This document shows, piece after piece, positions 18,290 through 63,988 of a stretch of DNA of 64,000 nt. The notes beneath the pieces are model-generated. The model did no database searches, was not told the DNA's origin, and saw only the letters and a list, made by a program, of their open reading frames with translations. How positions within the stretch are numbered: the stretch's first letter is position 1; each line of letters starts with the position of its first letter. Both the position numbers and the translations under genes were made by a program. This DNA is from Tetradesmus obliquus (taxonomy: Eukaryota; Chlorophyta; Chlorophyceae; Sphaeropleales; Scenedesmaceae): NCBI GenBank assembly GCA_030272155.1, contig CP126194.1, positions 1,603,501-1,667,500 on the forward strand, given 5' to 3'.

Positions 18290-21200
18290 AGACCATGACA
18301 TGCTGGTAGAATGACATTTATCTCCTGGATTGGCAGCATGCAATGCATCCTGTTTTGTGCACTTCATGTTGCGGACGCCACACAACATCTTCCCAGTCTG
18401 AGTGCAGCAAGTAAGCCACACTGTGTTGATTGCTTGAACATGCAAGGTGTATGCCGCAGCTACTGCAGCAGCAGTCCACACAGCCACGACAGCCAGCAGC
18501 AATCACCCATGGGTTTTTACTGGCCAGTGAACAGGCTGGCAAGAACATGCGGAGCCCTGGTTGGCGTGTCTGTCTGTGTGTGTAACCCTCACCATGCGTT
18601 CAGCTGCGGGTCAGTTGCCTTTGCTGGCAGCGCCAGATCAACAACGTGACAAAAGCTAGCCAGTGTTTGTTCCTCACCACGCGTTCAGCAGCGGGTCAGT
18701 TGCAGCCTCCGTCCAGTGTGTGTTCCTCACCACGCGTTCAGCAGCGGGTCAGTTGCAGCCTCGGTAAGCTCATGTGCTATGATTGAAATCATGCCATCCG
18801 TGCCGGTATCACCATTGGGGCTGGTTGTCTGTGCTGCGCAGTTGGCGGGGCAGCGCGCTGGGTTTCCTGCAAGCAAGAACAGCAAGTGCAATTGCAGCAT
18901 GGTCAACACCCCGATGGTGTGAGGGTGAAGCTGGCTCCGTAGGCTCATTTTGCTGCTGTTTGCTTTGCATGCCAGGGCGGTTGATCACAGCAGTGTCTGC
19001 TACATGCAACGTGTACAGCGTGAACTGCGATGAAGATGACCGCATGTGTATGCAGTCAGCCGGCTGGCAAGCAATGCCAGATTTCCAGAGCATCACCGTT
19101 GCAGCCTGCTGTGCTGCAGGTGTCGCGAGTACCAACAGAAGGCTGTTTTCAACCATCACAAACAGCCTGCAGCAACAACTGTACACAGCTGCTGGCTGCA
19201 AACGTCTGCTGCTGCAGCAACTGCTGTTATGCAACCGCTGCCATCCCCCACGCATTAAAAGAAGGGCACGCCCTCTCACCGACCCAGGAGTACTTGATGT
19301 AACCCACGCCTGCCATCATCATCATGTTACCATTTAAGCCATAGCAACGTCGCCATCGGCCCCGCGCCCCACAGGAGCGGCTGATTGAACAGGCGGAGGG
19401 GGAAGGGGAGGGAGCACTATTTCATTATCCCGCTTGCAGACATTCCTGTGATTCCAGGCAAGAACAAGGTAGTCAGCAATCAGCCGAGCAGCCAACCTGC
19501 AAACACCAGATCCACCCCAAACATCGTCAGAAACAAAACGCAACACCATGGCAGAGGGGTCAGTCATGGCCAATAAAGTGCGCAGTTTTTCAGCGCAACC
19601 TGGCAGCCTTCGCAGCTCTCTCTTACACTACGCCTGCCATGTTGGTGTTTGTGTGCCAGCCGCAGTAGTTGGTGCAAAAGCCAGAGTTCTGGTTCACATC
19701 AGCTGAGCTCAGCACAAAGTACACGCCATTCACATCGCCGGGCAGAGCCCCAGAGGATATGGCAGTAGTCACCACGCTCTGTATGTCAGCATTCGAAGGG
19801 TTGGTTCCCTTGGTGTAGCCCACCGTGGTCTGCAAGCAGCGTCAGTCAGCAGCTCGTCATGTGATGTACTGGCAGATAACGAGCAGGCATCATGTAGCAT
19901 CCTGCTGTGAGTCCAGGTGCCTCTGTGGGGTGCATTTTCATGCCCACCTTGTATTCCTGTACATGCCTGTACACATGTGAGATTGGCTAGAAGATGCATG
20001 CATGCCATATGGTATTCAGAGCCATAAGGATGCCTGGACTCTGCCTAACATTTTGGTCGAGTGTGCTGTGCCTGGCCTTTCACAACACATCCCTGCATTT
20101 TACACTTCACCATACCATCATAGCTTGGGGCACGCTGCCGCTGCTGCGCAGGCACACTCACACTCTTAGCAAATGTCACTGTAGGCGACACCTTTGCGCC
20201 GCCGACAGCGCTGTTGTCGTAGTATGTGGTTAATATGTTCCACCAAGCGCTGTTTCCGATGTTAGACAGGAACTCAGGCACGATAGTGAGAGCAGGGTGG
20301 CTTGCTGGCCAGTTGCCGTACCTGCAGACAGCGCAATGGGGTGACAAGCCGGCCAGAACAGCCATTCACCCCCTCAGATGATGTTTGCTACCACAGCTGC
20401 TCAGATGATGTATCTAGCAAACCAGCAAACTGTGCAGTCAAACACGACACCTGGTCAACAGGGCGCTGCTGCGTAGCTGCTAACCAGATTATGCATGCTG
20501 CCACAGCTGCTCCGACAGTGTTTGGTGCTACGGCTGCTCCCCCAAATGATATAAGTAGGTCACAGCAGCTGACCAGCTGATGCACGCTGTCGCAGAGGTT
20601 TTCCTGGGTGGAACCTCAGAGTGACAGCTAGAGCTGAGCTGCCTGCAGCGTCCTATTAACCAGGTATCTCTACCCATCGGTGTCAGTTGTGGCGTATGCA
20701 TGAACACACCATGCAACCCCTTTACTGCTGTCACAACTGCTCGATCAAGCTCACCAGACGATGTATGCTGTCACAGGTTTGGTCATGACCGGCCCGTTGT
20801 GATAGGTGATGGTGTTGAGGTTGGTGGTACCGCGGCTCGGCCTGGCTCGCCCGACAAAACCACTGAACCCACGTGGGTTGTCTGCAGACACAGCACAGCA
20901 CATAACTTAGTTGCAGACACAGCACAGCACAGCACAGCACAGCACAAAGCTGAATCCGGGAAGAAAGTTATTTTTCTGCTGTGGTTCTTGCAGCAGTGCT
21001 GGCGTCAAAGAAGGCAGGCCATGTTGCTGCCACAATGTGCAAGGTCACACAGTGTACATGTACGTGTGAATCGTGTTCGCACGGCATGCATGCTGCAGAC
21101 GAAACAGTGCTTTGCAAACTTGTTCAACCGCTGCTGCCAGCTTGATTGTCTGCAGAATGGCAATGCAGAGTGAGCCACATCGAACAGAATGCATCCTCAA

Positions 21201-22029
21201 ACAGGCTGGATTGTGGCCCTCAGAGCAGGCTGCTGTAGTGGTTCAAAGCACTGCACTGTTGCAGCTGGTGCTGGTGCTGGTACACCAGCTGCAGCCAGTG
21301 TATACACAGTGTGCATGGCCATGGCTTACTTGGGTCTCCGTCAAGGCCATTGGCTTGGCGGTTGCCATTACCGCCGGCATTAATTTAAAATTGATTTTCT
21401 ATGTTTTACTGATCTACGCCACCACTTATATATATATAGGCAGGTGGTGCAGTGCCTGCAGGAAGTACTGTGTACTGTGTGGCTCCAGCAGGTGTTGATA
21501 CAGCTGTAACAAAAGTCCCATCTGATCAGCCGCAGCTACACCGATCAACTGATGCATACAGTGAACCGTAGTGCACGCTGAGCCTATCAACTTCCGCGCG
21601 CACGTCTGCGATGCATGCGCGTGTCAGCGGCTCCATAGCCGCATGACTCAGCTCCAGGCCTGACTGTGCTGCAGCTGCAGTGCAGCTAGGGAGCGTCACT
21701 GGCCTCTGCATGCACGTCTGAGATTCGTGCTGGCATGAATGGCTCCATGGCCGCCACATCCGACCACACCTCCTGTGCCCCAACACCAGGCCTGCAGCTT
21801 TGAGGCAACACACATCGCAAGTTGCTTGTTACAGCCACACCTACTGACGAGGCCGCACGGTCACAGCTGTGTATGTTCTTCATTGCAGCCTCAGAGCAGC
21901 AGCTATGGCGCATCACTTGCTTCCGCGTGCACGTCTGAGATGCATGCGGGTGTGAATGGCTCCATGGCCGCCACATCCCACCATGCCTCCTCACAGAAGA
22001 ACTCACGCTTGCCGTCAGCATCGAGCTGC

Positions 22030-44597: not shown

Positions 44598-44765
44598 CAC
44601 AAGGGGCCCAGCAAGGGCCCAGCAAGGGGCCAGCAGGGGGCCAGCAGGGGGCCAGCAGGGGCCCAGCAGTAGGCCAGCAGGGGGCCAGCAGTAGGCCAGC
44701 AGTAGGCCAGCAGGGGGCCAATAGGGGGCCAGCATCAGGCCAATAGGGGCCCAGCAGAGGGCCAG
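44598..44765. repeat. 11-bp minisatellite (GGCCAGCAGGG)n
   Basis: About 14 imperfect copies of an 11-base unit, with GGCCAGCAGTA and GGCCAATAGGG variants, just left of the inverted duplication. Confidence 0.9.
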
Positions 44766-44870
44766 CAGCATGCCAGGAGTGCCAGCATGTACATTGAGTG
44801 CCAGGCATGCAAGTAAAGCATGTCTGCTGTGGGTGTTGATACTTGTGAACTGTAACAAGGTACTTCGGCA

Positions 44871-45047: not shown

Positions 45048-45571
45048 GTAGTGAACCTCCTGCAGCATTACTAGGATCACTGGAAACTCTGGGTGAATTG
45101 ATTTTCTGTTATTTGTTGGTTACAAGGGGAAGCGTAACCCTACCAGCTGGCCATACACACCAACCAGACGAATCTGAGTTGATGTTCCGATCACATGCTA
45201 GATACAGCGCTTGCGGGTTGGGCAGTGGTGGCACCAATCACATTGTCAACATTGTGCGGGGGCACATGCTGGCTGCACCGAAAGCCGGCAGGGCGCCTGC
45301 TTTGTACGGGGCTAAGATTACGGGTGGTGGGTGTGGCGGTACGGTTTGTGTTCTAGGGCTTGCTGGCAGTGCAGGCCAGGCTGCTGTTGACGCAGTCTTG
45401 TCGCAGTACCAGCAGGAGACTGGCTATGCTCCCTTTGTGTTTGCTGGCAGTAGTTTGGGGTCGCGGAAGTGGGCATCTGCGGTTACGCAGGCGCAGGGAA
45501 GCAGGAGGTGGGCAGTGATTGCGTGTGCTCACAGGGTGCCAACAGGTACAAACATGTGCCAAGGGGTGTGA
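45048..45571 (+). pseudogene. Truncated duplicate of L-arabinokinase C-terminus
   Basis: Carries the final GHMP-kinase portion: SHARYSACGLGSGGTNHIV and the third GHMP motif YGAKITGGGCGGTVCVLG, ending at TGA 45,569-45,571. Homology to the right copy stops at about 45,048 (TAGTGAACC), so the upstream kinase exons are missing. Inside the retained part the frame is open, which suggests a recent duplication. Confidence 0.85.
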
Positions 45572-47007
45572 GGACGTCTGTCACGTCCTCTGGGTGCTAG
45601 GGTTGCAAAACATTGTAACGGATTCCCAAGAAAACATTCCAACAACAAAAGATTGCTTATATTGCAGTCCAATTTCATAAGTGTAACAGACACTGCAGTA
45701 TTCTGTGACAGGCGTAACAAACGCACTTGATGTCACATCAGTATGCTGGCGTATGGATGCTGCAGCTTACTTTGTATGTTCTGTCACTGTATAGTACCAG
45801 CGTCTACAAACGTTGGCCTCAGTACTGATTTCTGGTTAATTCAAGTTGTGTATTTAGCCAATGGCATGACTCACAGAGCCTGTAGAAGTGTGCACTTTGC
45901 TGGCGGCTCACTGCCGCTGACCTTCTGTACAAAGTAACAGCACTCCAAGCATGCAAGCAAGCAGAAGAACCTTCTGTGCGCTGTTGCGTTCACCCTTCCA
46001 TCGTACAGAAACATTTTTGGCAGCAACTTCAACTTCTTTCACCATTCCTAAGGACCTTTTTCTCACTCATGTCCCGATTCTGACACACATGTGGTGCAGT
46101 GCCTTTGCAATCGTCAAGCAGTAGGAAGGGTGTTGTGCCTCACTGTTGACCTGCAACCAAATTGTGTTGCATTGTTGGCCATAGCCATGTGTACACTCGA
46201 TACTTGTTTCCTTGACTGTATTCTCTGCCACGATTGTCAGCGCATTGTCACAGTGGTGATGCTGTGTTCTATTGCATTTCTGTTACCCCAGAGCTCAAGG
46301 TCACATCCATAACATGAGCAAGCCATGGGTCCAGAATCTGAGCAATAACTGTTCACGGCTTGAGAAGCAGCACCTACCGCATAACCCTCCACACGGTGTG
46401 TATTTACAAAAATTACATTACTCTCTTGCATACTCGGCAGCTAGTTCAGGCAGGCAGCGCCACAAGAGGCTGCCAGCAACCACCAGAATAACATATCATG
46501 GCCCATAAGGCTTGGTTTGCCGGACATAGCTGCTTCATACCTCATTGCGGAACGCCACACCAAACACCCCGCCTCAGCAAGTCTTGAGCAAATGAAATTG
46601 ATGCACAATCTTCAATGAGATGTCAATGCACCAATGCGAGTGTGTGCACTTCAGCAATGCTGACATGCAGCCAACCACATGGACCGGGCATGCCTACTCA
46701 CAAGCATGATTGGGCAGCACTGCTGTATGGCATACAGCACAAATATACCACCATGGTATTCGCATGATGTTCTTCACTCAATCAACTTGTAACACATTGC
46801 TGATCAGCACAGCAACATGTCACAAGCAAATGCCACACATGAAGTTGGCACTAAATCCTTAGCAACACACTAATACAGGAGTGTATTTCCCACCCAAAGC
46901 TGGCATACAGCCAATGTGTGCTGTCATAGCTTTTGCGATCCAGAATATTGTTCTGAGCCACACACAGAAAGGCTCAGCAGTGGGGCTGGAGCTGATTGTC
47001 CACATAC

Positions 47008-48405
47008 TTAGTTGATTGCGTCAAGGAGGCGCCTGCCGGCACCGCCGCCGCCAGAGCCACCACCACCACCACCAGCACCACCACCACTACCACCACCACC
47101 ACCGGCCGTCAGATCAATCGTGCCACCCTGGGCAGTTGCACCACCACCGGCGGCTGCCCCAGCATTAGAGATTGCGCCGGAGCCTCCAGCAGGCTGTGCA
47201 TTGGTGGTGCCAATACCACCCCTGATGGCTTGGTTGGATGCAATACCGCCTGCAGGAAGGGCGACACCACCTGCTGAAACACCTCCTGTAGCACCAGTGC
47301 CTGCTGAGGCCAGGCCACTGCCAGCAGTAGCTGACGCTGTGGGTGCGCTCAAGCCACCATCTGCACCACCAGCAGCGGCGACATTGCCACCACCACCAAG
47401 AGTGGTTGCAGACGTGCCTGAGCCTCCAGTGTTGCCAGCAGCTGTTGCGATCCCGGCATCAGTGCCTTCTGTGTTAGCAATGCCGTTGGTTGGATTGCCC
47501 GTACTACTGCCACCGGTAAAACCCCTGCCTGACGTGCCAGTTGTGGGGTTGCTAAGGCTTGCGCTGTCAACAACCCCGCTACTGCTGCCCTGGGCGACTC
47601 CTGTGGTAGCAACACCACCAGAGCGTGTGGTGCCAGCAAGGTAACTGCCGCTGCTGCCAGTGGTTGTGCCCGCGCCACCTCCAACAATGGCACCATTGGT
47701 GCCACCGACGTCGGCCGCCTCAGTAGACTTGCTGGACCTGTCAGAGCCACAAGTAATAGGCAGACAGCATGTGAGGGTGTCAACAATGTGGCAGCACACA
47801 AGTCCTGAAGGAGAGAAAACATCGCCATGCAACAAGGGTCACCACTTGCGCTGGCATGCAAGCATGATACTGGACTTATGTCTGCCAGCAGAATGGTGAT
47901 GCAGGAGTTTGGACACTTGTAAGATGCAGCCTGATGCTGCATAATGCTTCCGCTTGCAAAGCAGATGCAGTGCAGCAGTTGCGATGCCACAGCTGGCTGC
48001 ATGCACGCAGTATGCAGTAGAAACCTGCACCGAAACGCATCCTTCCATTGGTGCCGTTCCACCGAGAAACGCAACCTATACGCATCGCAAACAAACCAAC
48101 TCATGCACCTACATGGAAGAACTGCCGGAGACTGTAGTGCCACGGCTGGAAGCAACAACAGCACCGCCGCCGACGCCGCTGACGGAGCCACCCATGGACC
48201 CCTTTGTGGCACCGGATGCCACCTGCACTTTTGCGGCAGCAGGGGCTGGAGTTGGCTTGTTGTAGGTGACGGTGACAAACTTGAAAGGGCCGAAGAAGTT
48301 AAGGTTCCTGGCGGCCTCAACGTTGCTTGCGTGCATCACCAGCGCGAGCATGGCCAAGAGGGCCACAGCTGTGGCCCCCACTGGCTGCAGGACACCTCGC
48401 GTCAT
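47008..48405 (-). CDS. Glycine-rich secreted protein (left copy)
   Basis: Two exons, 48405-48113 and 47737-47008, phase 2 at the join, 340 aa. The N-terminus MTRGVLQPVGATAVALLAML with LVMHASNVEA is a signal peptide or anchor, followed by RNLNFFGPFKFVTVTYN. The rest is Gly/Thr/Ser/Ala-rich with GGGG blocks and ends GGAGRRLLDAIN. Such proteins are typical of cell-wall or extracellular matrix. The copy is virtually identical to 59996-61393, and in the same relation to the arabinokinase tail (convergent). The intron begins GTAGGT and ends TGACAG. Confidence 0.8.
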
Positions 48406-49286
48406 AACTCTTGGCGAACTACTGGCGGGGGCTCCTGTGGCAAGCAGCAAACAGCAGAGGTGGCTAAGTGAGCGCTATGTGTGGATATACATGCGGACCT
48501 GGCCTCACTGTTCACACTCTCGGTCGGCAAGGCAGTCTGCGCGGTGATGTTCACACCCATGCTGCCCACTGCAATCGTTGGGTTTAATGCACCACAATTT
48601 AGATATATACTACATCACCATGCATTGTAAAGGAAACTGGATCCTGAGGCTGCCTTGCAAGTGGTCCGAATCATTATATCATCGTGACTGAACCAGCCGT
48701 CTTCCAAGCTGTCTGTTGATATAAATGCACGACGAAAGCATTAAGTGATAATGAAAACAATGTATGAGGACGTTGACATAACCTGCTTCTCCGAAGTGGA
48801 TATCCCTGAGCAATCGCCGATGACCATAAGGAAACAAGGCCGCTATCTTCTGCTTTGGTGCTGTTTATAAGATCTAACCGTGTGTATGGCTCACCTGTGG
48901 CCTCCGACCGTGGTCAGCAGTGGCTTCAACTGTGAAGTGCGCAGTTAATCAGCACTGTTCACGAACAAGAATCCTTGCACAATGCACAACAATCAAGGTG
49001 AATGCAAGGTCTACAGCTGGCAGGCTATGTATAGTACATGCTTGCTTGTCTCTGTTTCACGATGTGTCACCAGTAACATGAGCTGCAGCTTCGCCTGACG
49101 TTGAGGCGTTGGACGTACCGGCCACACCCGTCAGAACGACAAGAGACGGGTAGTTATAGGCTGTAACAATATACAGCAATTCGTTGGCCGGTGCGCAACG
49201 ACTGCTCACGGGGCAGGCCGGCTGTAGCCAGCTGGCACCACTGCAAGCGGGTGGCACCTTAGAGTTTGCTCTGACTGTGGGGCAAT

Positions 49287-49342
49287 GGTGGTAAGTATAG
49301 TATACCATAAGTATACTATTATGGTATACTATACTTACCACC
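49287..49342. repeat. Perfect 23-bp-stem hairpin (left arm)
   Basis: GGTGGTAAGTATAGTATACC... pairs with ...GGTATACTATACTTACCACC around a 10-base loop AGTATACTAT. It is mirrored at 59,060-59,115 in the right arm. Confidence 0.95.
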
Positions 49343-49418
49343 CCTGCTGTGGGGCAACACGGAGCCCACAGCAACCTTGTAGTTGCAGGTTAGTCTCTCC
49401 ATAGGCGGTGTGCATGGA

Positions 49419-49483
49419 CACTACTCAAGCACCGCTTATGGAGAACTATTGAAAAGCACAGGTATATAAGCATTGGTTCAAGC
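49419..49483 (+). repeat. Left terminal inverted repeat
   Basis: 65 bases starting CACTACTCAAGCACCGC and ending GGTTCAAGC. One mismatch to the right end. It forms a near-palindrome with the adjacent flank (CTCCATAGGCGGTG / CACCGCTTATGGAG). Confidence 0.88.
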
Positions 49484-49507
49484 GTCACTGCTTGATTTTT
49501 TCTTCAC

Positions 49508-52500
49508 TCAAATGGCCGCCACGTGAGCGCGCACGCGGTTCACAAACTCGGACACATAGCGCTCATCGCCGCCATGCTGCATGTTTTGCCTGCTCCACAG
49601 CCTCTGTCAATGGCGACCGCACGCGCATACCCTAGATACCGCACCACATCATCCACCTTTGTCCCCGCCATGATGCAGAAAGGGCACACCAGGTAAGCAA
49701 CCCAGGACGCTACAGTGTACATCATCTTGGCGCGCGCAGGTGAGTCGGCGTACACAGCCCCCAGCACAGCAAAGTGCAGAAACACAGAGCCCGCCATGAT
49801 GGCGGATGTGTTGGGGTCCCTCTCTGCAGGGGTGACGTACACACCATGATCGCCTGTAGTCACAGCAGCGGCAGGTGCAGAAGCAGTAAAACAACTGTCT
49901 AGCACGATACCTTGCGGCATGCAAAGCACCCCGGGTCTTGCTGCTACTGCTGCTGTGCACCTCATGTCAGCAAACGCTTGCATGACAAGCAGCAAACTGA
50001 TGCAGTGCGCGGTATAGGCTGAACTGAAACATTGTCCAAGTCAAGGGCTCTTAGGGAAGCACTTGCAAAATCTGCCCGAAAACTATGCTGTCATAGAAGC
50101 TGCGCACCTGCACCAGCTGCAGCATAGTCGCTGTCGCCGTCTCCAGCAGCAGCAGCAGCAAAAGCTAGCGCGCCTGCAGGCACAAGAAGCGCGCAAGTGT
50201 GAACAACACTCGCATGCCGGCCAAGCAGCAGTGCACCCCGCTGGAATAGAACAAGATCACATGCGCGCCAGCCGTACACTGCCTGCACACTTCTCCATGC
50301 AGCACATGGCTGCTCATAGCGCAACTGTGGCGACTGCTGCAGCGTGCTGCTGCTGTCATGATGACTGCACTGTGCTGTGAAAAGGCCAGCATACCTGCGC
50401 CAGCTGCAGCGGTGCCGCCGTCTCCAGCAGCAGCAGCAGCAGCAGCAGCAGCTGGCGAGCCTGCAGGCACAAGAAGCGTGCAAGCTTAAACAACACTCCC
50501 ATGCCGGGCAAGCAGCAGCGCACCCCGCTGGAACAGAACAAGATCACATGCGCGCCAGCCGTACACTGCCTGCACACTCCTCCATGCAGCACATGGCTGC
50601 TCATAGCGCAACTGTGGCGACTGCTGCAGCGTGCTGCTGCTGTCATGATGACTGCACTGTGCTGTGAAAAGGCCAGCATACCTGCGCCAGCTGCAGCGGT
50701 GCCGCCGTCTCCAGCAGCAGCAGCAGCAGCAGCTGGCGCGCCTGCAGGCACAAGAAGCGTGCAAGCGTAAACAACACTCCCATGCCGGGCAAGCAGCAGC
50801 GCACCCCGCTGGAACAGAACAAGATCACATGCGCGCCAGCCGTACACTGCCTGCACACTCCTCCATGCAGCACATGGCTGCTCATAGCGCAACCGTGGCG
50901 ACTGCTGCAGCGTGCTGCTGCTGTCATGATGACTGCACTGTGCTGTGAAAAGGCCAGCATACCTGCGCCAGCTGCAGCTGTGCCGCCGTCTCCAGCAGCA
51001 GCAGCAGCAGCAGCAGCAGCTGGCGAGCCTACAGGCACAAGAAGCGTGCAAGCGTAAACAACACTCCCATGCCGGGCAAGCAGCAGCGCACCCCGCTGGA
51101 ACAGAACAAGATCACATGCGCGCCAGCCGTACACTGCCTGCACACTCCTCCATGCAGCACATGGCTGCTCATAGCGCAACTGTGGCGACTGCTGCAGCGT
51201 GCTGCTGCTGTCATGATGACTGCACTGTGCTGTGAAAAGGCCAGCATACCTGCGCCAGCTGCAGCGGTGCCGCCGTCTCCAGCAGCAGCAGCAGCAGCAG
51301 CAGCTGGCGAGCCTACAGGCACAAGAAGCGTGCAAGCGTAAACAACACTCCCATGCCGGGCAAGCAGCAGCGCACCCCGCTGGAACAGAACAAGATCACA
51401 TGCGCGCCAGCCGTACACTGCCTGCACACTCCTCCATGCAGCACATGGCTGCTCATAGCGCAACTGTGGCGACTGCTGCAGCGTGCTGCTGCTGTCATGA
51501 TGACTGCACTGTGCTGTGAAAAGGCCAGCATACCTGCGCCAGCTGCAGCGGTGCCGCCGTCTCCAGCAGCAGCAGCAGCAGCAGCAGCTGGCGAGCCTGC
51601 AGGCACAAGAAGCGTGCAAGCGTAAACAACACTCCCATGCCGGGCAAGCAGCAGCGCACCCCGCTGGAACAGAACAAGATCACATGCGCGCCAGCCGTAC
51701 ACTGCCTGCACACTCCTCCATGCAGCACATGGCTGCTCATAGCGCAACTGTGGCGACTGCTGCAGCGTGCTGCTGCTGTCATGATGACTGCACTGTGCTG
51801 TGAAAAGGCCAGCATACCTGCGCCAGCTGCAGCGGTGCCGCCGTCTCCAGCAGCAGCAGCAGCAGCAGCTGGCGCGCCTGCAGGCACAAGAAGCGTGCAA
51901 GCGTAAACAACACTCCCATGCCGGGCAAGCAGCAGCGCACCCCGCTGGAACAGAACAAGATCACATGCGCGCCAGCCGTACACTGCCTGCACACTCCTCC
52001 ATGCAGCACATGGCTGCTCATAGCGCAACTGTGGCGACTGCTGCAGCGTGCTGCTGCTGTCATGATGACTGCACTGTGCTGTGAAAAGGCCAGCATACCT
52101 GCGCCAGCTGCAGCGGTGCCGCCGTCTCCAGCAGCAGCAGCAGCAGCAGCAGCTGGCGAGCCTACAGGCACAAGAAGCGTGCAAGCGTAAACAACACTCC
52201 CATGCCGGGCAAGCAGCAGCGCACCCCGCTGGAACAGAACAAGATCACATGCGCGCCAGCCGTACACTGCCTGCACACTCCTCCATGCAGCACATGGCTG
52301 CTCATAGCGCAACTGTGGCGACTGCTGCAGCGTGCTGCTGCTGTCATGATGACTGCACTGTGCTGTGAAAAGGCCAGCATACCTGCGCCAGCTGCAGCGG
52401 TGCCGCCGTCTCCAGCAGCAGCAGCAGCAGCAGCAGCTGGCGAGCCTGCAGGCACAAGAAGCGTGCAAGCGTAAACAACACTCCCATGCCGGGCAAGCAG

Positions 52501-54679
52501 CAGCGCACCCCGCTGGAACAGAACAAGATCACATGCGCGCCAGCCGTACACTGCCTGCACACTCCTCCATGCAGCACATGGCTGCTCATAGCGCAACTGT
52601 GGCGACTGCTGCAGCGTGCTGCTGCTGTCATGATGACTGCACTGTGCTGTGAAAAGGCCAGCATACCTGCGCCAGCTGCAGCGGTGCCGCCGTCTCCAGC
52701 AGCAGCAGCAGCAGCAGCAGCTGGCGAGCCTACAGGCACAAGAAGCGTGCAAGCGTAAACAACACTCCCATGCCGGGCAAGCAGCAGCGCACCCCGCTGG
52801 AACAGAACAAGATCACATGCGCGCCAGCCGTACACTGCCTGCACACTCCTCCATGCAGCACATGGCTGCTCATAGCGCAACTGTGGCGACTGCTGCAGCG
52901 TGCTGCTGCTGTCATGATGACTGCACTGTGCTGTGAAAAGGCCAGCATACCTGCGCCAGCTGCAGCGGTGCCGCCGTCTCCAGCAGCAGCAGCAGCAGCA
53001 GCAGCTGGCGAGCCTGCAGGCACAAGAAGCGTGCAAGCGTAAACAACACTCCCATGCCGGGCAAGCAGCAGCGCACCCCGCTGGAACAGAACAAGATCAC
53101 ATGCGCGCCAGCCGTACACTGCCTGCACACTCCTCCATGCAGCACATGGCTGCTCATAGCGCAACTGTGGCGACTGCTGCAGCGTGCTGCTGCTGTCATG
53201 ATGACTGCACTGTGCTGTGAAAAGGCCAGCATACCTGCGCCAGCTGCAGCGGTGCCGCCGTCTCCAGCAGCAGCAGCAGCAGCAGCTGGCGCGCCTGCAG
53301 GCACAAGAAGCGTGCAAGCGTAAACAACACTCCCATGCCGGGCAAGCAGCAGCGCACCCCGCTGGAACAGAACAAGATCACATGCGCGCCAGCCGTACAC
53401 TGCCTGCACACTCCTCCATGCAGCACATGGCTGCTCATAGCGCAACTGTGGCGACTGCTGCAGCGTGCTGCTGCTGTCATGATGACTGCACTGTGCTGTG
53501 AAAAGGCCAGCATACCTGCGCCAGCTGCAGCGGTGCCGCCGTCTCCAGCAGCAGCAGCAGCAGCAGCAGCTGGCGAGCCTACAGGCACAAGAAGCGTGCA
53601 AGCGTAAACAACACTCCCATGCCGGGCAAGCAGCAGCGCACCCCGCTGGAACAGAACAAGATCACATGCGCGCCAGCCGTACACTGCCTGCACACTCCTC
53701 CATGCAGCACATGGCTGCTCATAGCGCAACTGTGGCGACTGCTGCAGCGTGCTGCTGCTGTCATGATGACTGCACTGTGCTGTGAAAAGGCCAGCATACC
53801 TGCGCCAGCTGCAGCGGTGCCGCCGTCTCCAGCAGCAGCAGCAGCAGCAGCAGCTGGCGAGCCTGCAGGCACAAGAAGCGTGCAAGCGTAAACAACACTC
53901 CCATGCCGGGCAAGCAGCAGCGCACCCCGCTGGAACAGAACAAGATCACATGCGCGCCAGCCGTACACTGCCTGCACACTCCTCCATGCAGCACATGGCT
54001 GCTCATAGCGCAACTGTGGCGACTGCTGCAGCGTGCTGCTGCTGTCATGATGACTGCACTGTGCTGTGAAAAGGCCAGCATACCTGCGCCAGCTGCAGCG
54101 GTGCCGCCGTCTCCAGCAGCAGCAGCAGCAGCAGCTGGCGCGCCTGCAGGCACAAGAAGCGTGCAAGCGTAAACAACACTCCCATCCCGGGCAAGCAGCA
54201 GCGCACCCCGCTGGAACAGAACAAGATCACATGCGCGCCAGCCGTACACTGCCTGCACACTCCTCCATGCAGCACATGGCTGCTCATAGCGCAACCGTGG
54301 CGACTGCTGCAGCGTGCTGCTGCTGTCATGATGACTGCACTGTGCTGTGAAAAGGCCAGCATACCTGCGCCAGCTGCAGCTGTGCCGCCGTCTCCAGCAG
54401 CAGCAGCAGCAGCAGCAGCAGCTGGCGAGCCTACAGGCACAAGAAGCGTGCAAGCGTAAACAACACTCCCATGCCGGGCAAGCAGCAGCGCACCCCGCTG
54501 GAACAGAACAAGATCACATGCGCGCCAGCCGTACACTGCCTGCACACTCCTCCATGCAGCACATGGCTGCTCATAGCGCAACTGTGGCGACTGCTGCAGC
54601 GTGCTGCTGCTGTCATGATGACTGCACTGTGCTGTGAAAAGGCCAGCATACCTGCGCCAGCTGCAGCGGTGCCGCCGTC

Positions 54680-54715
<36 letters not shown>

Positions 54716-57700
54716 TGGCGAGCCTGCAGGCACAAGAAGCGTGCAAGCGTAAACAACACTCCCATGCCGGGCAAGCAGCAGCGCACCCCGCTGGAACAGA
54801 ACAAGATCACATGCGCGCCAGCCGTACACTGCCTGCACACTCCTCCATGCAGCACATGGCTGCTCATAGCGCAACTGTGGCGACTGCTGCAGCGTGCTGC
54901 TGCTGTCATGATGACTACACTGTGCTGTGAAAAGGCCAGCATACCTGCGCCAGCTGCAGCGGTGCCGCCGTCTCCAGCAGCAGCAGCAGCAGCAGCTGGC
55001 GCGCCTGCAGGCACAAGAAGCGTGCAAGCGTAAACAACACTCCCATGCCGGGCAAGCAGCAGCGCACCCCGCTGGAACAGAACAAGATCACATGCGCGCC
55101 AGCCGTACACTGCCTGCACACTCCTCCATGCAGCACATGGCTGCTCATAGCGCAACTGTGGCGACTGCTGCAGCGTGCTGCTGCTGTCATGATGACTGCA
55201 CTGTGCTGTGAAAAGGCCAGCATACCTGCGCCAGCTGCAGCGGTGCCGCCGTCTCCAGCAGCAGCAGCAGCAGCAGCAGCTGGCGAGCCTGCAGGCACAA
55301 GAAGCGTGCAAGCGTAAACAACACTCCCATGCCGGGCAAGCAGCAGCGCACCCCGCTGGAACAGAACAAGATCACATGCGCGCCAGCCGTACACTGCCTG
55401 CACACTCCTCCATGCAGCACATGGCTGCTCATAGCGCAACTGTGGCGACTGCTGCAGCGTGCTGCTGCTGTCATGATGACTGCACTGTGCTGTGAAAAGG
55501 CCAGCATACCTGCGCCAGCTGCAGCGGTGCCGCCGTCTCCAGCAGCAGCAGCAGCAGCAGCTGGCGCGCCTGCAGGCACAAGAAGCGTGCAAGCGTAAAC
55601 AACACTCCCATCCCGGGCAAGCAGCAGCGCACCCCGCTGGAACAGAACAAGATCACATGCGCGCCAGCCGTACACTGCCTGCACACTCCTCCATGCAGCA
55701 CATGGCTGCTCATAGCGCAACCGTGGCGACTGCTGCAGCGTGCTGCTGCTGTCATGATGACTGCACTGTGCTGTGAAAAGGCCAGCATACCTGCGCCAGC
55801 TGCAGCTGTGCCGCCGTCTCCAGCAGCAGCAGCAGCAGCAGCAGCAGCTGGCGAGCCTACAGGCACAAGAAGCGTGCAAGCGTAAACAACACTCCCATGC
55901 CGGGCAAGCAGCAGCGCACCCCGCTGGAACAGAACAAGATCACATGCGCGCCAGCCGTACACTGCCTGCACACTCCTCCATGCAGCACATGGCTGCTCAT
56001 AGCGCAACTGTGGCGACTGCTGCAGCGTGCTGCTGCTGTCATGATGACTGCACTGTGCTGTGAAAAGGCCAGCATACCTGCGCCAGCTGCAGCGGTGCCG
56101 CCGTCTCCAGCAGCAGCAGCAGCAGCAGCAGCTGGCGAGCCTGCAGGCACAAGAAGCGTGCAAGCGTAAACAACACTCCCATGCCGGGCAAGCAGCAGCG
56201 CACCCCGCTGGAACAGAACAAGATCACATGCGCGCCAGCCGTACACTGCCTGCACACTCCTCCATGCAGCACATGGCTGCTCATAGCGCAACTGTGGCGA
56301 CTGCTGCAGCGTGCTGCTGCTGTCATGATGACTGCACTGTGCTGTGAAAAGGCCAGCATACCTGCGCCAGCTGCAGCGGTGCCGCCGTCTCCAGCAGCAG
56401 CAGCAGCAGCAGCAGCAGCTGCGCCTGCGTCAGCGGGCGCGCCTGCAGGCACAAGAAGCGCGCGCGCTTCTTCAACAACACACGCATGCCGGGCAAGCAG
56501 CAGTGCACCCCGCTGCCAGCTGGAACAGTACTGAACACCTGATGCAAATCATTCTGTGCTCCGCAACATGGATTACTCCTCACAGCATGTGGGCGCACCT
56601 GGTTTGGGTGGCGCCAGTCTCGCTATGTCAGCCTTGAGTGGCAGCAGAAAGGCATCCATCACTGTAGGCTCTGTGGGGCCTTCTATCAGCACCGTGAGGG
56701 AGTGCCATTCAGCCCATGCTGATGCGCCATCAGGAAGGCACTCGTACCTGCAGCCCAGTGCGGTCATTGTGTCACGGTGGCGCAATGCTGGCCAAAGCTG
56801 AGACCTCACAAGAGACAGCTTCGCTAGCATGATGGAATGCAGCATATCAAGGAGTTCAAATATAAAACATATGAAGCGATGCTTTACAAGATCAGCCCTG
56901 ACACACCTCCACCAAATGCCGCCTGTAGACCACTGCCTGCTTTTGAACGGCTGGAAGAAATCGGCCCCGAGCGCAATCACGCCATGGCCTGGTCCAGCTG
57001 CCGCACCACCTGTGGCTTTGTTGACCCGGTTCCATTCTGGAGAGTCCTAGTAGTTGCCAACCACCTTGGCCTTCGCAGTCCTGATGGCTGTCACAAAGTT
57101 TGGGTCCATCATCAGCTCCTCAATGGACTCCTGTGGACGGATGTACCAGAACCTCTGCATGCAAAGCAGTCAAGCTAAGTGAGTGACATCAGTCAGAACA
57201 TATGCTTGTTAACTGCCCTGGAACCTCGCGGCAGCAAGTACCTGCACAGCCGAAGAACATCAGCGCAGCAAAATTGTCAGCTCCATTTACCCTGAGGTGA
57301 AAAACACACTTGCACTTTTGGCACAGCATGGTCAGAACATCCCGCAACTACACTGCATACGCCGCCACCCCTGTCCAGCACTCACCCTCACGGGCACTTC
57401 CTTGCATCAAACCGTGCTCCGCCGCACTTCTTGCAGCAGTCCTGCCGATGAGCCTTCCACTCGGACTGGGGAGTAGGGGGCCAGCCGGTGCACCCCAGGA
57501 GACAGGAGTGCCACTCGTACTTGCTGGCAGTCGCCACATCCAGCACCTGCTTCATCATGTACAGGCTCTTGGGCAGCGTGTGGCCTTGCAGCACATCACA
57601 GCATGCTGCGTCATTGTTATCATTATGCAGATGATGATAGCATGCAGTGGCTCAACAGAAAAGCACGAGCAGTCACACACAAACCTGATGGAATCAACAG

Positions 57701-58301: not shown

Positions 58302-58811
58302 ATGCTACTACTCTGCTGCCTGCTGCTGACCTGGCCACACCATGCCTGCCTAGACAGGGGTGCTGGCAGCATAGTGTCAGACAGCAAATAAGTGTCTTAG
58401 CAAATAAGCTTTTGGTTTATCGACCTCGGCAGGATTTCTTGAGCAAGTGCCGGAGCAGAGGCCAAGGTGTCCCTTCTCGAAACACTACATAGCGAAGTTA
58501 CCCAGCTTGCAGAAGAGGCGACTGGGATCACTGACATACAAGTTATAAGGTCCGAGTACGAATGCGCTAGAGGCTACAGCTGCAGGGCACACACCAGGGT
58601 GCCAACCATGTGAGGTAGGACGTTACTTTTGACAGTTCATGACTGCGCAGGCCTGCGCTTGCAGACCACATCACAACAGGCGTTTCAAGCAGCTGATTCA
58701 AAAAGCACCAGGGATCGTCACACGTCTTGCCAACCATTGCACCAACAACAGGTCACTTCACTTGCTGCTACTGCTCCCCGGTGCCAAGTGATTTTGGCTT
58801 TTCATACACAG

Positions 58812-58918
58812 ATGGCAGACTATCACACAGTATACAAAGGCCCTGAGGGCGAGACGACGCAGTGGGAGGACATACAGATACGGCTAGGCAACATGGCCCC
58901 CAAGCCAAAGCCCTGGAA
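58812..58918 (+). pseudogene. Captured first exon of a phosducin-like protein 3 gene
   Basis: After an acceptor-like CATACACAG, an ATG opens MADYHTVYKGPEGETTQWED and IQIRLGNMAPKPKPW, the conserved N-terminus of PDCL3/phosducin-like proteins, which assist CCT chaperonin folding. Homology ends where the transposon terminal repeat begins (58,919), so no thioredoxin-like domain is present. It lies divergent from the transposase start (58,301) and could share its promoter. It is a truncated fragment, not a working gene. Confidence 0.8.
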
Positions 58919-58983
58919 GCTTGAACCAATGCTTATATACCTGTGCTTTTCAATAGTTCTTCATAAGCGGTGCTTGAGTAGTG
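58919..58983 (-). repeat. Right terminal inverted repeat
   Basis: Complement of the left terminal repeat with one mismatch (TATGAAG versus TATGGAG). Ends ...CTTGAGTAGTG. Confidence 0.88.
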
Positions 58984-59059
58984 TCCATGCACACCGCCTA
59001 TGGAGAGACTAACCTGCAACTACAAGGTTGCTGTGGGCTCCGTGTTGCCCCACAGCAGG

Positions 59060-59115
59060 GGTGGTAAGTATAGTATACCATAATAGTATACTTATGGTAT
59101 ACTATACTTACCACC
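59060..59115. repeat. Perfect 23-bp-stem hairpin (right arm)
   Basis: Mirror of 49,287-49,342, with the loop reverse-complemented (ATAGTATACT), as expected for an inverted copy. Confidence 0.95.
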
Positions 59116-59995
59116 CCTGCCCCACAGTCAGAGCAAACTCTAAGGTGTCACCCGCTTGCAGTGGTGCCAGCTGGCTACAGCCGGCCTGCCCCGTGAGCAG
59201 TCGTTGCGCACCGGCCAACGAATTGCTGTATATTGTTACAGCCTATAACTACCCGTCTCTTGTCGTTCTGACGGGTGTGACCGGTACGTCCAACGCCTCT
59301 ACGTCAGGCGAAGCTGCAGCTCATGTTACTGGTGACACATCGTGATACAGAGACAAGCAAGCATGTACTATACATAGCCTGCCAGCTGTAGACGTTGCAG
59401 TCACCTTGGTTGTTGTGCAGTGTGCAAGGATTCTTGTTCGTGAACAGTGCTGATCAACTGCGCACTTCACAGTTGAAGCCACTGCTGACCACGGTCGGAG
59501 GCCACAGGTGAGCCATACACACGGTTAGATCTTATAAACAGCACCAAAGCAGAAGATAGCGGCCTTGTTTCCTTATGGTCATCGGCGATTGCTCAGGGAT
59601 ATCCACTTCGGAGAAGCAGGTTATGTCGACGTCCTCATACATTGTTTTCATTATCACTTAATGCTTTCGTCGTGCATTTATATCAACAGACAGCTTGGAA
59701 GACGGCTGGTTCAGTCACGATGATATAATGATTCGGACCACTTGCAAGGCAGCCTCAGGATTCAGTTTCCTTTACAATGCATGGTGATGTGTATATATCT
59801 AAATTGTGGTGCATTAAACCCAACGATTGCAGTGGGCAGCATGGGTGTGAACATCACCGCGCAGACTGCCTTGCCGACCGAGAGTGTGAACAGTGAGGCC
59901 AGGTCCGCATGTATATCCACACATAGCGCTCACTTAGCCACCTCTGCTGTTTGCTGCTTGCCACAGGAGCCCCCGCCAGTAGTTCGTCAAGAGGT

Positions 59996-61393
59996 ATGAC
60001 GCAAGGTGTCCTGCAGCCAGTGGGGGCCACAGCTGTGGCCCTCTTGGCCATGCTCGCGCTGGTGATGCACGCAAGCAACGTTGAGGCCGCCAGGAACCTT
60101 AACTTCTTCGGCCCTTTCAAGTTTGTCACCGTCACCTACAACAAGCCAACTCCAGCCCCTGCTGCCGCAAAAGTGCAGGTGGCATCCGGTGCCACAAAGG
60201 GGTCCATGGGTGGCTCCGTCAGCGGCGTCGGCGGCGGTGCTGTTGTTGCTTCCAGCCGTGGCACTACAGTCTCCGGCAGTTCTTCCATGTAGGTGCATGA
60301 GTTGGTTTGTTTGCGATGCGTATAGGTTGCGTTTCTTGGTGGAACGGCACCAATGGAAGGATGCGTTTCGGTGCAGGTTTCTACTGCATACTGCGTGCAT
60401 GCAGCCAGCTGTGGCATCGCAAATGCTGCACTGCATCTGCTTTGCAAGCGGAAGCATTATGCAGCATCAGGCTGCATCTTACAAGTGTCCAAACTCCTGC
60501 ATCACCATTCTGCTGGCAGACATAAGTCCAGTATCATGCTTGCATGCCAGCGCAAGTGGTAACCCTTGTTGCACGGCGATGTTTTCTCTCCTTCAGGACT
60601 TGTGTGCTGCCACATTGTTGACACCCTCACATGCTGTCTGCCTATTACTTGTGGCTCTGACAGGTCCAGCAAGTCTACTGAGGCGGCCGACGTCGGTGGC
60701 ACCAATGGTGCCATTGTTGGAGGTGGCGCGGGCACAACCACTGGCAGCAGCGGCAGTTACCTTGCTGGCACCACACGCTCTGGTGGTGTTGCTACCACAG
60801 GAGTCGCCCAGGGCAGCAGTAGCGGGGTTGTTGACAGCGCAAGCCTTAGCAACCCCACAACTGGCACGTCAGGCAGGGGTTTTACCGGTGGCAGTAGTAC
60901 GGGCAATCCAACCAACGGCATTGCTAACACAGAAGGCACTGATGCCGGGATCGCAACAGCTGCTGGCAACACTGGGGGCTCAGGCACGTCTGCAACCACT
61001 CTTGGTGGTGGTGGCAATGTCGCCGCTGCTGGTGGTGCAGATGGTGGCTTGAGCGCACCCACAGCGTCAGCTACTGCTGGCAGTGGCCTGGCCTCAGCAG
61101 GCACTGGTGCTACAGGAGGTGTTTCAGCAGGTGGTGTCGCCCTTCCTGCAGGCGGTATTGCATCCAACCAAGCCATCAGGGGTGGTATTGGCACCACCAA
61201 TGCACAGCCTGCTGGAGGCTCCGGCGCAATCTCTAATGCTGGGGCAGCCGCCGGTGGTGGTGCAACTGCCCAGGGTGGCACGATTGATCTGACGGCCGGT
61301 GGTGGTGGTGGTAGTGGTGGTGGTGCTGGTGGTGGTGGTGGTGGCTCTGGCGGCGGCGGTGCCGGCAGGCGCCTCCTTGACGCAATCAACTAA
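59996..61393 (+). CDS. Glycine-rich secreted protein (right, parental copy)
   Basis: Exons 59996-60288 and 60664-61393, 340 aa. It is identical in structure to the left copy apart from a few substitutions (MTQGVLQ here, MTRGVLQ there). It has a signal/anchor segment, a FFGPFKFVTVTYNKP block, then long Gly/Thr/Ser-rich sequence with a C-terminal poly-Gly stretch and RRLLDAIN. The conserved, non-glycine ends suggest function; a matrix protein is inferred. The 3' end faces the arabinokinase gene. Confidence 0.82.
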
Positions 61394-62782
61394 GTATGTG
61401 GACAATCAGCTCCAGCCCCACTGCTGAGCCTTTCTGTGTGTGGCTCAGAACAATATTCTGGATCGCAAAAGCTATGACAGCACACATTGGCTGTATGCCA
61501 GCTTTGGGTGGGAAATACACTCCTGTATTAGTGTGTTGCTAAGGATTTAGTGCCAACTTCATGTGTGGCATTTGCTTGTGACATGTTGCTGTGCTGATCA
61601 GCAATGTGTTACAAGTTGATTGAGTGAAGAACATCATGCGAATATCATGGTGGTATATTTGTGCTGTATGCCATACAGCAGTGCTGCCCAATCATGCTTG
61701 TGAGTAGGCATGCCCGGTCCATGTGGTTGGCTGCATGTCAGCATTGCTGAAGTGCACACACTCGCATTGGTGCATTGACATCTCATTGAAGATTGTGCAT
61801 CAATTTCATTTGCTCAAGACTTGCTGAGGCGGGGTGTTTGGTGTGGCGTTCCGCAATGAGGTATGAAGCAGCTATGTCCGGCAAACCAAGCCTTATGGGC
61901 CATGATATGTTATTCTGGTGGTTGCTGGCAGCCTCTTGTGGCGCTGCCTGCCTGAACTAGCTGCCGAGTATGCAAGAGAGTAATGTAATTTTTGTAAATA
62001 CACACCGTGTGGAGGGTTATGCGGTAGGTGCTGCTTCTCAAGCCGTGAACAGTTATTGCTCAGATTCTGGACCCATAGCTTGCTCATGTTATGGATGTGA
62101 CCTTGAGCTCTGGGGAAACAGAAATGCAATAGAACACAGCATCACCACTGTGACAATGCGCTGACAATCGTGGCAGAGAATACAGTCAAGGAAACAAGTA
62201 TCGAGTGTACACATGGCTATGGCCAACAATGCAACACAATTTGGTTGCAGGTCAACAGTGAGGCACAACACCCTTCCTACTGCTTGACGATTGCAAAGGC
62301 ACTGCACCACATGTGTGTCAGAATCGGGACATGAGTGAGAAAAAGGTCCTTAGGAATGGTGAAAGAAGTTGAAGTTGCTGCCAAAAATGTTTCTGTACGA
62401 TGGAAGGGTGAACGCAACAGCGCACAGAAGGTTCTTCTGCTTGCTTGCATGCTTGGAGTGCTGTTACTTTGTACAGAAGGTCAGCGGCAGTGAGCCGCCA
62501 GCAAAGTGCACACTTCTACAGGCTCTGTGAGTCATGCCATTGGCTAAATACACAACTTGAATTAACCAGAAATCAGTACTGAGGCCAACGTTTGTAGACG
62601 CTGGTACTATACAGTGACAGAACATACAAAGTAAGCTGCAGCATCCATACGCCAGCATACTGATGTGACATCAAGTGCGTTTGTTACGCCTGTCACAGAA
62701 TACTGCAGTGTCTGTTACACTTATGAAATTGGACTGCAATATAAGCAATCTTTTGTTGTTGGAATGTTTTCTTGGGAATCCG

Positions 62783-62787
62783 TTACA
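62783..62787 (-). terminator. TGTAA polyadenylation signal (arabinokinase)
   Basis: 43-47 nt beyond the stop codon on the minus strand. Retained in the left copy at about 45,614. Confidence 0.6.
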
Positions 62788-62829
62788 ATGTTTTGCAACC
62801 CTAGCACCCAGAGGACGTGACAGACGTCC

Positions 62830-63988
<1,159 letters not shown>

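Follow-up and report, generated by a model that had tools for sequence, protein, structure and literature searches.

How does a transposase gene come to hold a long row of almost identical small exons, and would it use them? The question is posed by a stretch of 64,000 nucleotides from the green alga Tetradesmus obliquus, referred to here as the window (contig CP126194.1, C4:1603501-1667500 in our numbering of a compact nuclear genome of 17 contigs and 104.7 Mb). Comparison with its relatives in the same genome makes us fairly confident that the locus is a fragment of a CACTA-type transposon, and that its transposase gene contains symmetric mini exons in tandem (phase 1 on both sides), each with an intron of its own, that multiply as modules. 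It is also quite probable, on the same comparative grounds, that the exons of these units are used in the messenger RNA.

The array is strikingly regular. Tandem Repeats Finder reports a repeat at 50135-56416 with a period of 284, 22.1 copies and 97% matches. Read on the minus strand, from 56442 to 50108, it resolves into 23 units, every one of them made of an acceptor, an exon of 60-81 nt and a GT donor. Exon lengths are 60, 63, 66, 72 or 81 nt, divisible by three in 23/23, and the introns between them measure exactly 221 nt in 22/22. All 23 acceptors end in AG, as CTGCAG or CTGTAG, and the donor is GTATGC in every unit except the last, which has GTGCGC. The exon bearing FLLPLK ends at 56599 and the one bearing AVYADSPARA starts at 49853, with phase 1 at both junctions. 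A first-pass annotation of this DNA had proposed 23 mini exons in units of about 284 bp, each with its acceptor and donor, entered and left in phase 1 and changing in length only within exons and only by triplets. Extraction of the 23 units bears this out, with the reservation that the length changes are mostly slippage of a (GCT)n run, which proceeds by triplets anyway. As read from the sequence, the array encodes an Ala/Gly-rich linker separating two conserved transposase blocks; its exons add up to 491 codons, hence a putative insert of 491 residues if spliced. The annotation's putative linker of several hundred residues agrees with this in length and site, but it sits in a copy that is a truncated pseudogene. 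The parts of the gene and of the array are as follows.

57379..57593, minus strand, transposase exon 2 (approximate, conserved block), 85-86% match to diverged-family copies
56907..57154, minus strand, transposase exon 3, with an in-frame TAG in the window copy
56599..56747, minus strand, transposase exon 4, ending in ...DAFLLPLKADIARLAPPKP, donor in phase 1
56362..56442, minus strand, array exon 1, diverged end unit, APADA in common with the first C8 unit
56078..56140, minus strand, array exon 2
55791..55856, minus strand, array exon 3
55510..55569, minus strand, array exon 4
55226..55288, minus strand, array exon 5
54945..55004, minus strand, array exon 6
54652..54723, minus strand, array exon 7
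54365..54430, minus strand, array exon 8
54084..54143, minus strand, array exon 9
53800..53862, minus strand, array exon 10
53516..53578, minus strand, array exon 11
53235..53294, minus strand, array exon 12
52951..53013, minus strand, array exon 13
52667..52729, minus strand, array exon 14
52383..52445, minus strand, array exon 15
52099..52161, minus strand, array exon 16
51818..51877, minus strand, array exon 17
51534..51596, minus strand, array exon 18
51250..51312, minus strand, array exon 19
50963..51028, minus strand, array exon 20
50682..50741, minus strand, array exon 21
50395..50460, minus strand, array exon 22
50108..50173, minus strand, array exon 23, diverged end unit, GDGDSDYAAAGA in common with the last C8 unit
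49516..49853, minus strand, transposase exon 5, HGVYVTP...AVYADSPARA, acceptor in phase 1, frame changed near the end and homology cut at 49516

Taken alone, the window proves little, because its units are too alike: its 21 inner units have 98 open AG...GT stretches in common when read on the coding strand, and 34 when read on the complementary strand. Relatives are therefore needed, and the genome provides them. Our search scores only the best candidates, so that copy counts are lower bounds. In at least 10 copies the array site is flanked on either side by transposase blocks (a count that leaves out a C6 locus matching the 5' side only), and units are present in 10/10, their number being 3, 5, 7 or 23. 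The annotation had suggested looking for other unit numbers in other copies, and these are found; intact copies devoid of units, which would have spoken against it, are absent among those with both flanks. At high identity, an array unit outside the window was found only on C8, in a copy with 3 units that is 96% identical to the window copy over 1.6 kb and has one in-frame stop, in its last exon. The other eight copies form a diverged family, with coding blocks 76-86% identical to those of the window copy: five of them have 7 units (on C2, C12, C13 and two on C11) and three have 5 (on C16, C7 and C5). Homologous units on eight other contigs (C2, C5, C7, C8, C11, C12, C13 and C16) lead us to reject an assembly artefact, or any explanation particular to the window.

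In the diverged family the modules occupy the same site, after ...DAFLQPLTADIVRLAPPQP and before HGVYVTPAERDP...AVYADSPARAK, in the same phase. Their introns range over 178-185 nt in steps that are not triplets; exon lengths vary only by triplets (the bounds of unit 3 on C16, with acceptor CAGCAG, were set by eye). The end units are common to the window and C8 copies, and the inner units are homogenised. Both array families have first and last units that are distinct and fixed in position, and changes occur inside the array. The five copies on C2, C12, C13 and C11 (L024, L025, L026, L027 and L028) show 99.98-100% identity throughout the 9.5-10 kb compared; together with a matching 3-bp target duplication in three of them, this points to a very recent burst of transposition. 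Searches of GTDB genomes and of IMG/VR for relatives yielded none that passed.

Are the units exons? Comparison narrows the choice considerably. Among 8 units of the diverged family, open AG...GT stretches shared by all number 8 on the coding strand and 5 on the opposite one. When 24 units of both families are aligned (9/23 from the window, 3/3 from C8, 7/7 from C2 and 5/5 from C7) and acceptor-donor pairs are counted around an open stretch of 30-130 nt and triplet length, the predicted exon is common to 22/24 units in phase 1 and to 21 in phase 0, and the next best pair to 13/24. The remaining two each close an array of the diverged family, and their own donor sits in a different alignment column. 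In four arrays, all 38 exons examined come as a whole symmetric exon with its intron per repeat unit, and phase 1 is open in 38/38, phase 0 in 37/38 and phase 2 in 24/38. The idea that the units are open solely in the phase imposed by the flanking exons hence stands for the set as a whole and is weak for any single unit.

For one pair of units compared between the families, identity is 51/60 in the exon (a figure that includes the GCT run), 51/73 in the intron's final 80 nt and 61/99 over its remaining length; the z scores against shuffles are 10.8, 7.4 and 2.0, respectively. The stretch of about 75-80 nt ahead of each unit acceptor (for example 56141-56220 in the window) is 70% alike between families in this one pair, while most other introns of the transposase gene are no longer aligned between the two families by blastn. 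Its persistence suggests that it may hold a splicing signal.

Several observations weigh against the use of these exons. Within the diverged family, in 8 inner units (first and last left out), substitutions affect 164/1992 exon positions (8.2%) and 244/5117 intron positions (4.8%). The comparison of exons with introns that the annotation had proposed shows no better conservation of exons there, the single between-family pair giving the opposite picture (85% in the exon against 62-70% in the intron). Equal divergence of exons and introns accompanied by broken frames, named beforehand as fatal to the idea, is found in its first half only: exons are no better conserved in the diverged family, yet no unit examined has a break in frame. 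Over ten codons of the exon tail compared between families, the ratio of nonsynonymous to synonymous substitution rates (dN/dS) is 1.16. In three flanking exon blocks it is 0.13, 0.16 and 0.37, values that mark these transposase blocks as being under purifying selection. Judging from these substitutions, there is no sign that the linker residues matter: they look unconstrained, although frame and splice sites persist. Moreover, skipping the whole array keeps the frame just as inclusion does, phase 0 is almost as open as phase 1, an exon built as a GCT repeat will to some extent have triplet lengths by default, and the comparison draws on only four distinct arrays. A genome search for spliced retro-copies with two junction patterns (up to 2 mismatches) gave one match with 2 mismatches on C1 for one pattern and none for the other, and no retro-copy was found. 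Finally, the transposase has no transposase match in Pfam or NCBIfam.

Could the array then be an intronic minisatellite, lying within a single large intron, of phase 1, that separates exons 4 and 5 and is always removed, its exon-like parts being a by-product of a GCT-rich repeat? The harmlessness of skipping, the abundance of shared open stretches on both strands of the window and the lack of exon conservation within the diverged family would all be expected in that case, and the same elements do bear a second array, of 282 bp, with stops in all six frames. However, comparing the two diverged families leaves only one widely shared stretch, phase 1 is intact in every exon, similarity is higher for the exon than for the intron in the sole between-family pair compared, and the same site encodes a linker within an exon in two distant families (see below). 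We consider this explanation improbable. We also find it unlikely, if a little easier to entertain, that the modules are optional exons whose varying inclusion yields transposase isoforms with linkers of different lengths regulating activity. All modules being symmetric, any subset keeps the frame, and many near-identical splice sites in series favour skipping; but the splice sites look uniform rather than graded. The second array (L028:1-1544 with L030:8357-10000), in which a period of 282 recurs in about 11 copies at 99% and which is shorter in the element on C16, was itself tried as an exon array (composite ~18457-21644) and rejected as coding on account of its stops.

A different objection concerns what the window can teach us. 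Expansion to 23 units may have been confined to a dead copy and be uninformative about the working element, a possibility to be taken seriously although we would not bet on it. In the window the gene is interrupted by a stop, changed in frame and truncated, and the near-identity of its array units points to recent growth. Against this, 5 and 7 units are present in copies whose gene models are open, and 3 in the C8 copy, so that the objection would account for the jump to 23 and not for the array itself. The boldest alternative has the array regulate the transposon from within: the number of units would set linker length or splicing load, and hence transposase activity, and arrays would drift upward from one copy to the next until a copy silences itself. 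We regard this as very improbable; were it true, each insertion would carry its own expanding counter.

More distant families suggest where the modules, read as multiplying exons, could have come from. L034 and L035, for each of which one of two copies was read, represent families whose protein is 48-49% identical, and at the array site they have a low-complexity linker within one exon, Gln-rich in L034 and Ala/Gln-rich in L035. In L034, read by eye, the linker is followed by a phase-1 intron and then by HGIEVTP. At the array site the more distant L036 (30%) lacks both linker and intron, and L037, a relative on C14, is so degraded there that it cannot be read. As distant families lengthen the same site by amino-acid repeats in one exon, linker growth here appears to have shifted from codon repeats to exon repeats. 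In the simplest history, an old variable linker beside a phase-1 intron would have been split into intron-exon modules in an ancestor of both array families. Within the array, unequal exchange or replication slippage would then have multiplied the modules, while the end units stayed put; the homogenised inner units make such a mechanism of unit-number change likely. A relaxed transposase linker would in this way grow and shrink through duplication of intron-exon modules, and arrays of any size might be tolerated, since no exon disturbs the frame and there is no constraint on the residues of the linker. The linker is likely to be neutral or nearly so.

The placement of the element among CACTA transposons, already proposed in the annotation, agrees with the termini and the target duplications seen in the diverged copies, and rests on them because Pfam does not recognise the transposase. 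The left terminus CACTATGGTCACC is present in 8/8 diverged copies and a right CACTA terminus in 6/8 (in the C5 and C11b copies it was not found in the stretch fetched). Terminal inverted repeats (TIRs) are about 47 bp long and imperfect (91%), and a 3-bp target duplication flanks 5/6 copies with both ends read (TAC, CTT, CAC, AAG, GTG), the sixth, on C2, being mismatched. The elements measure 17.0 kb on C2 and 15.7 kb on C16. CACTA ends were looked for in the C8 copy and none were found, and the diverged-family termini have no match in the window, where the copy is truncated. The transposase may resemble Tnp2 in its motifs. A Pfam match below the cutoff (Cytochrome-c551, E 0.013) and two matches to PDB sequences above E 0.5 were taken as chance. 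Gene models of the diverged family that include the array have 12 or 14 exons, of which 5 or 7 are array units, and they are open to one terminal stop in 4/4 copies modelled (1405, 1355, 1355 and 1357 codons, stop included); for the remaining four, identity to the C2 copy is 99.98-100% across a compared length of 9.5-10 kb.

The window copy itself is a truncated pseudogene. Besides the in-frame TAG in exon 3 and the frame change in exon 5, its homology to other copies stops at 49516-49518, a point past which the C2 gene continues for about 2.1 kb and the similarity between C8 and C2 for about 2.3 kb. Its 23-unit array thus sits in a dead copy, and its 491-residue linker was probably never part of a working transposase. 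The near-identity of the units (the 22 introns fall into 7 types, and 9/22 are identical) suggests that the expansion was recent and of a run-away kind. Upstream of the gene, 58303-58918 (with L029:4546-5183) matches a locus on C6 (86% and 73%) and not the C8 copy, and the 5' side of the fragment may therefore derive from another copy or family. The fragment lies between the arms of an inverted duplication.

45049..49486, no strand assigned, left arm of the 4.44-kb inverted duplication around the element fragment
58916..63352, no strand assigned, right arm of the same inverted duplication

Between the arms, 3562 nt align at 100% identity and a further 875 nt at 98%. Elsewhere in the genome they have no long match, the best being 74% over 320 nt and the remainder short repeats. 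We tried them as transposon terminal repeats and rejected this, given the lack of other long genome matches, the CACTA termini of the family and the absence, by eye, of a target duplication in the outer flanks. The duplication could be a real hairpin-forming locus or an assembly fold-back. Each arm contains a near-perfect palindrome (49282-49347 and 59055-59120; 29-nt arms and an 8-nt loop, GGTGGTAAGTATAGTATACCATAA), and an 11-bp tandem repeat of 15 copies lies immediately outside the left arm, at 44602-44768. A tRNA scan found none.

Partial parallels exist in other genes. Schistosome micro-exon genes have short symmetrical exons in series, but they are not transposase genes and their units are not known to be near-identical tandem copies. 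In the kringle IV-2 variable-number tandem repeat (VNTR) of LPA, the unit holds whole exons and introns; it differs in being far longer and in belonging to a host gene. PMC11462820 describes the KIV-2 repeat as a host-gene coding repeat of variable number. In teleost Piccolo, according to passages in PMC3484663, one zinc-finger exon has been amplified 8 to 16 times depending on the species, with unequal crossover credited; the amplified exon is the likeness, while a zinc-finger domain in a host gene differs from a low-complexity linker in a transposon gene. Plant CACTA (EnSpm/Spm) transposons resemble the present element in their CACTA ends, TIRs (here ~47 bp, imperfect), 3-bp target duplications and multi-exon transposase. 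Passages in PMC4158355 give one to six exons for 64 plant CACTA transposases and cite up to eleven in maize, against the 12 or 14 modelled in the diverged family (array units making up 5 or 7) and the 23 array units of the window copy; the word "tandem" is absent from its main text. We found no described CACTA element or transposase with an exon array in our searches of the open-licence PMC literature, although one may be in print.

Variable-number tandem exon arrays are known in a few host genes; here one would reside in the transposase that the element needs for its own spread. Since such an element makes many copies per genome, it offers replicate arrays. With these one could measure how exon arrays grow, learn if symmetry of phase suffices to render them harmless, and see when the growth of a linker shifts from codon repeats to exon repeats.

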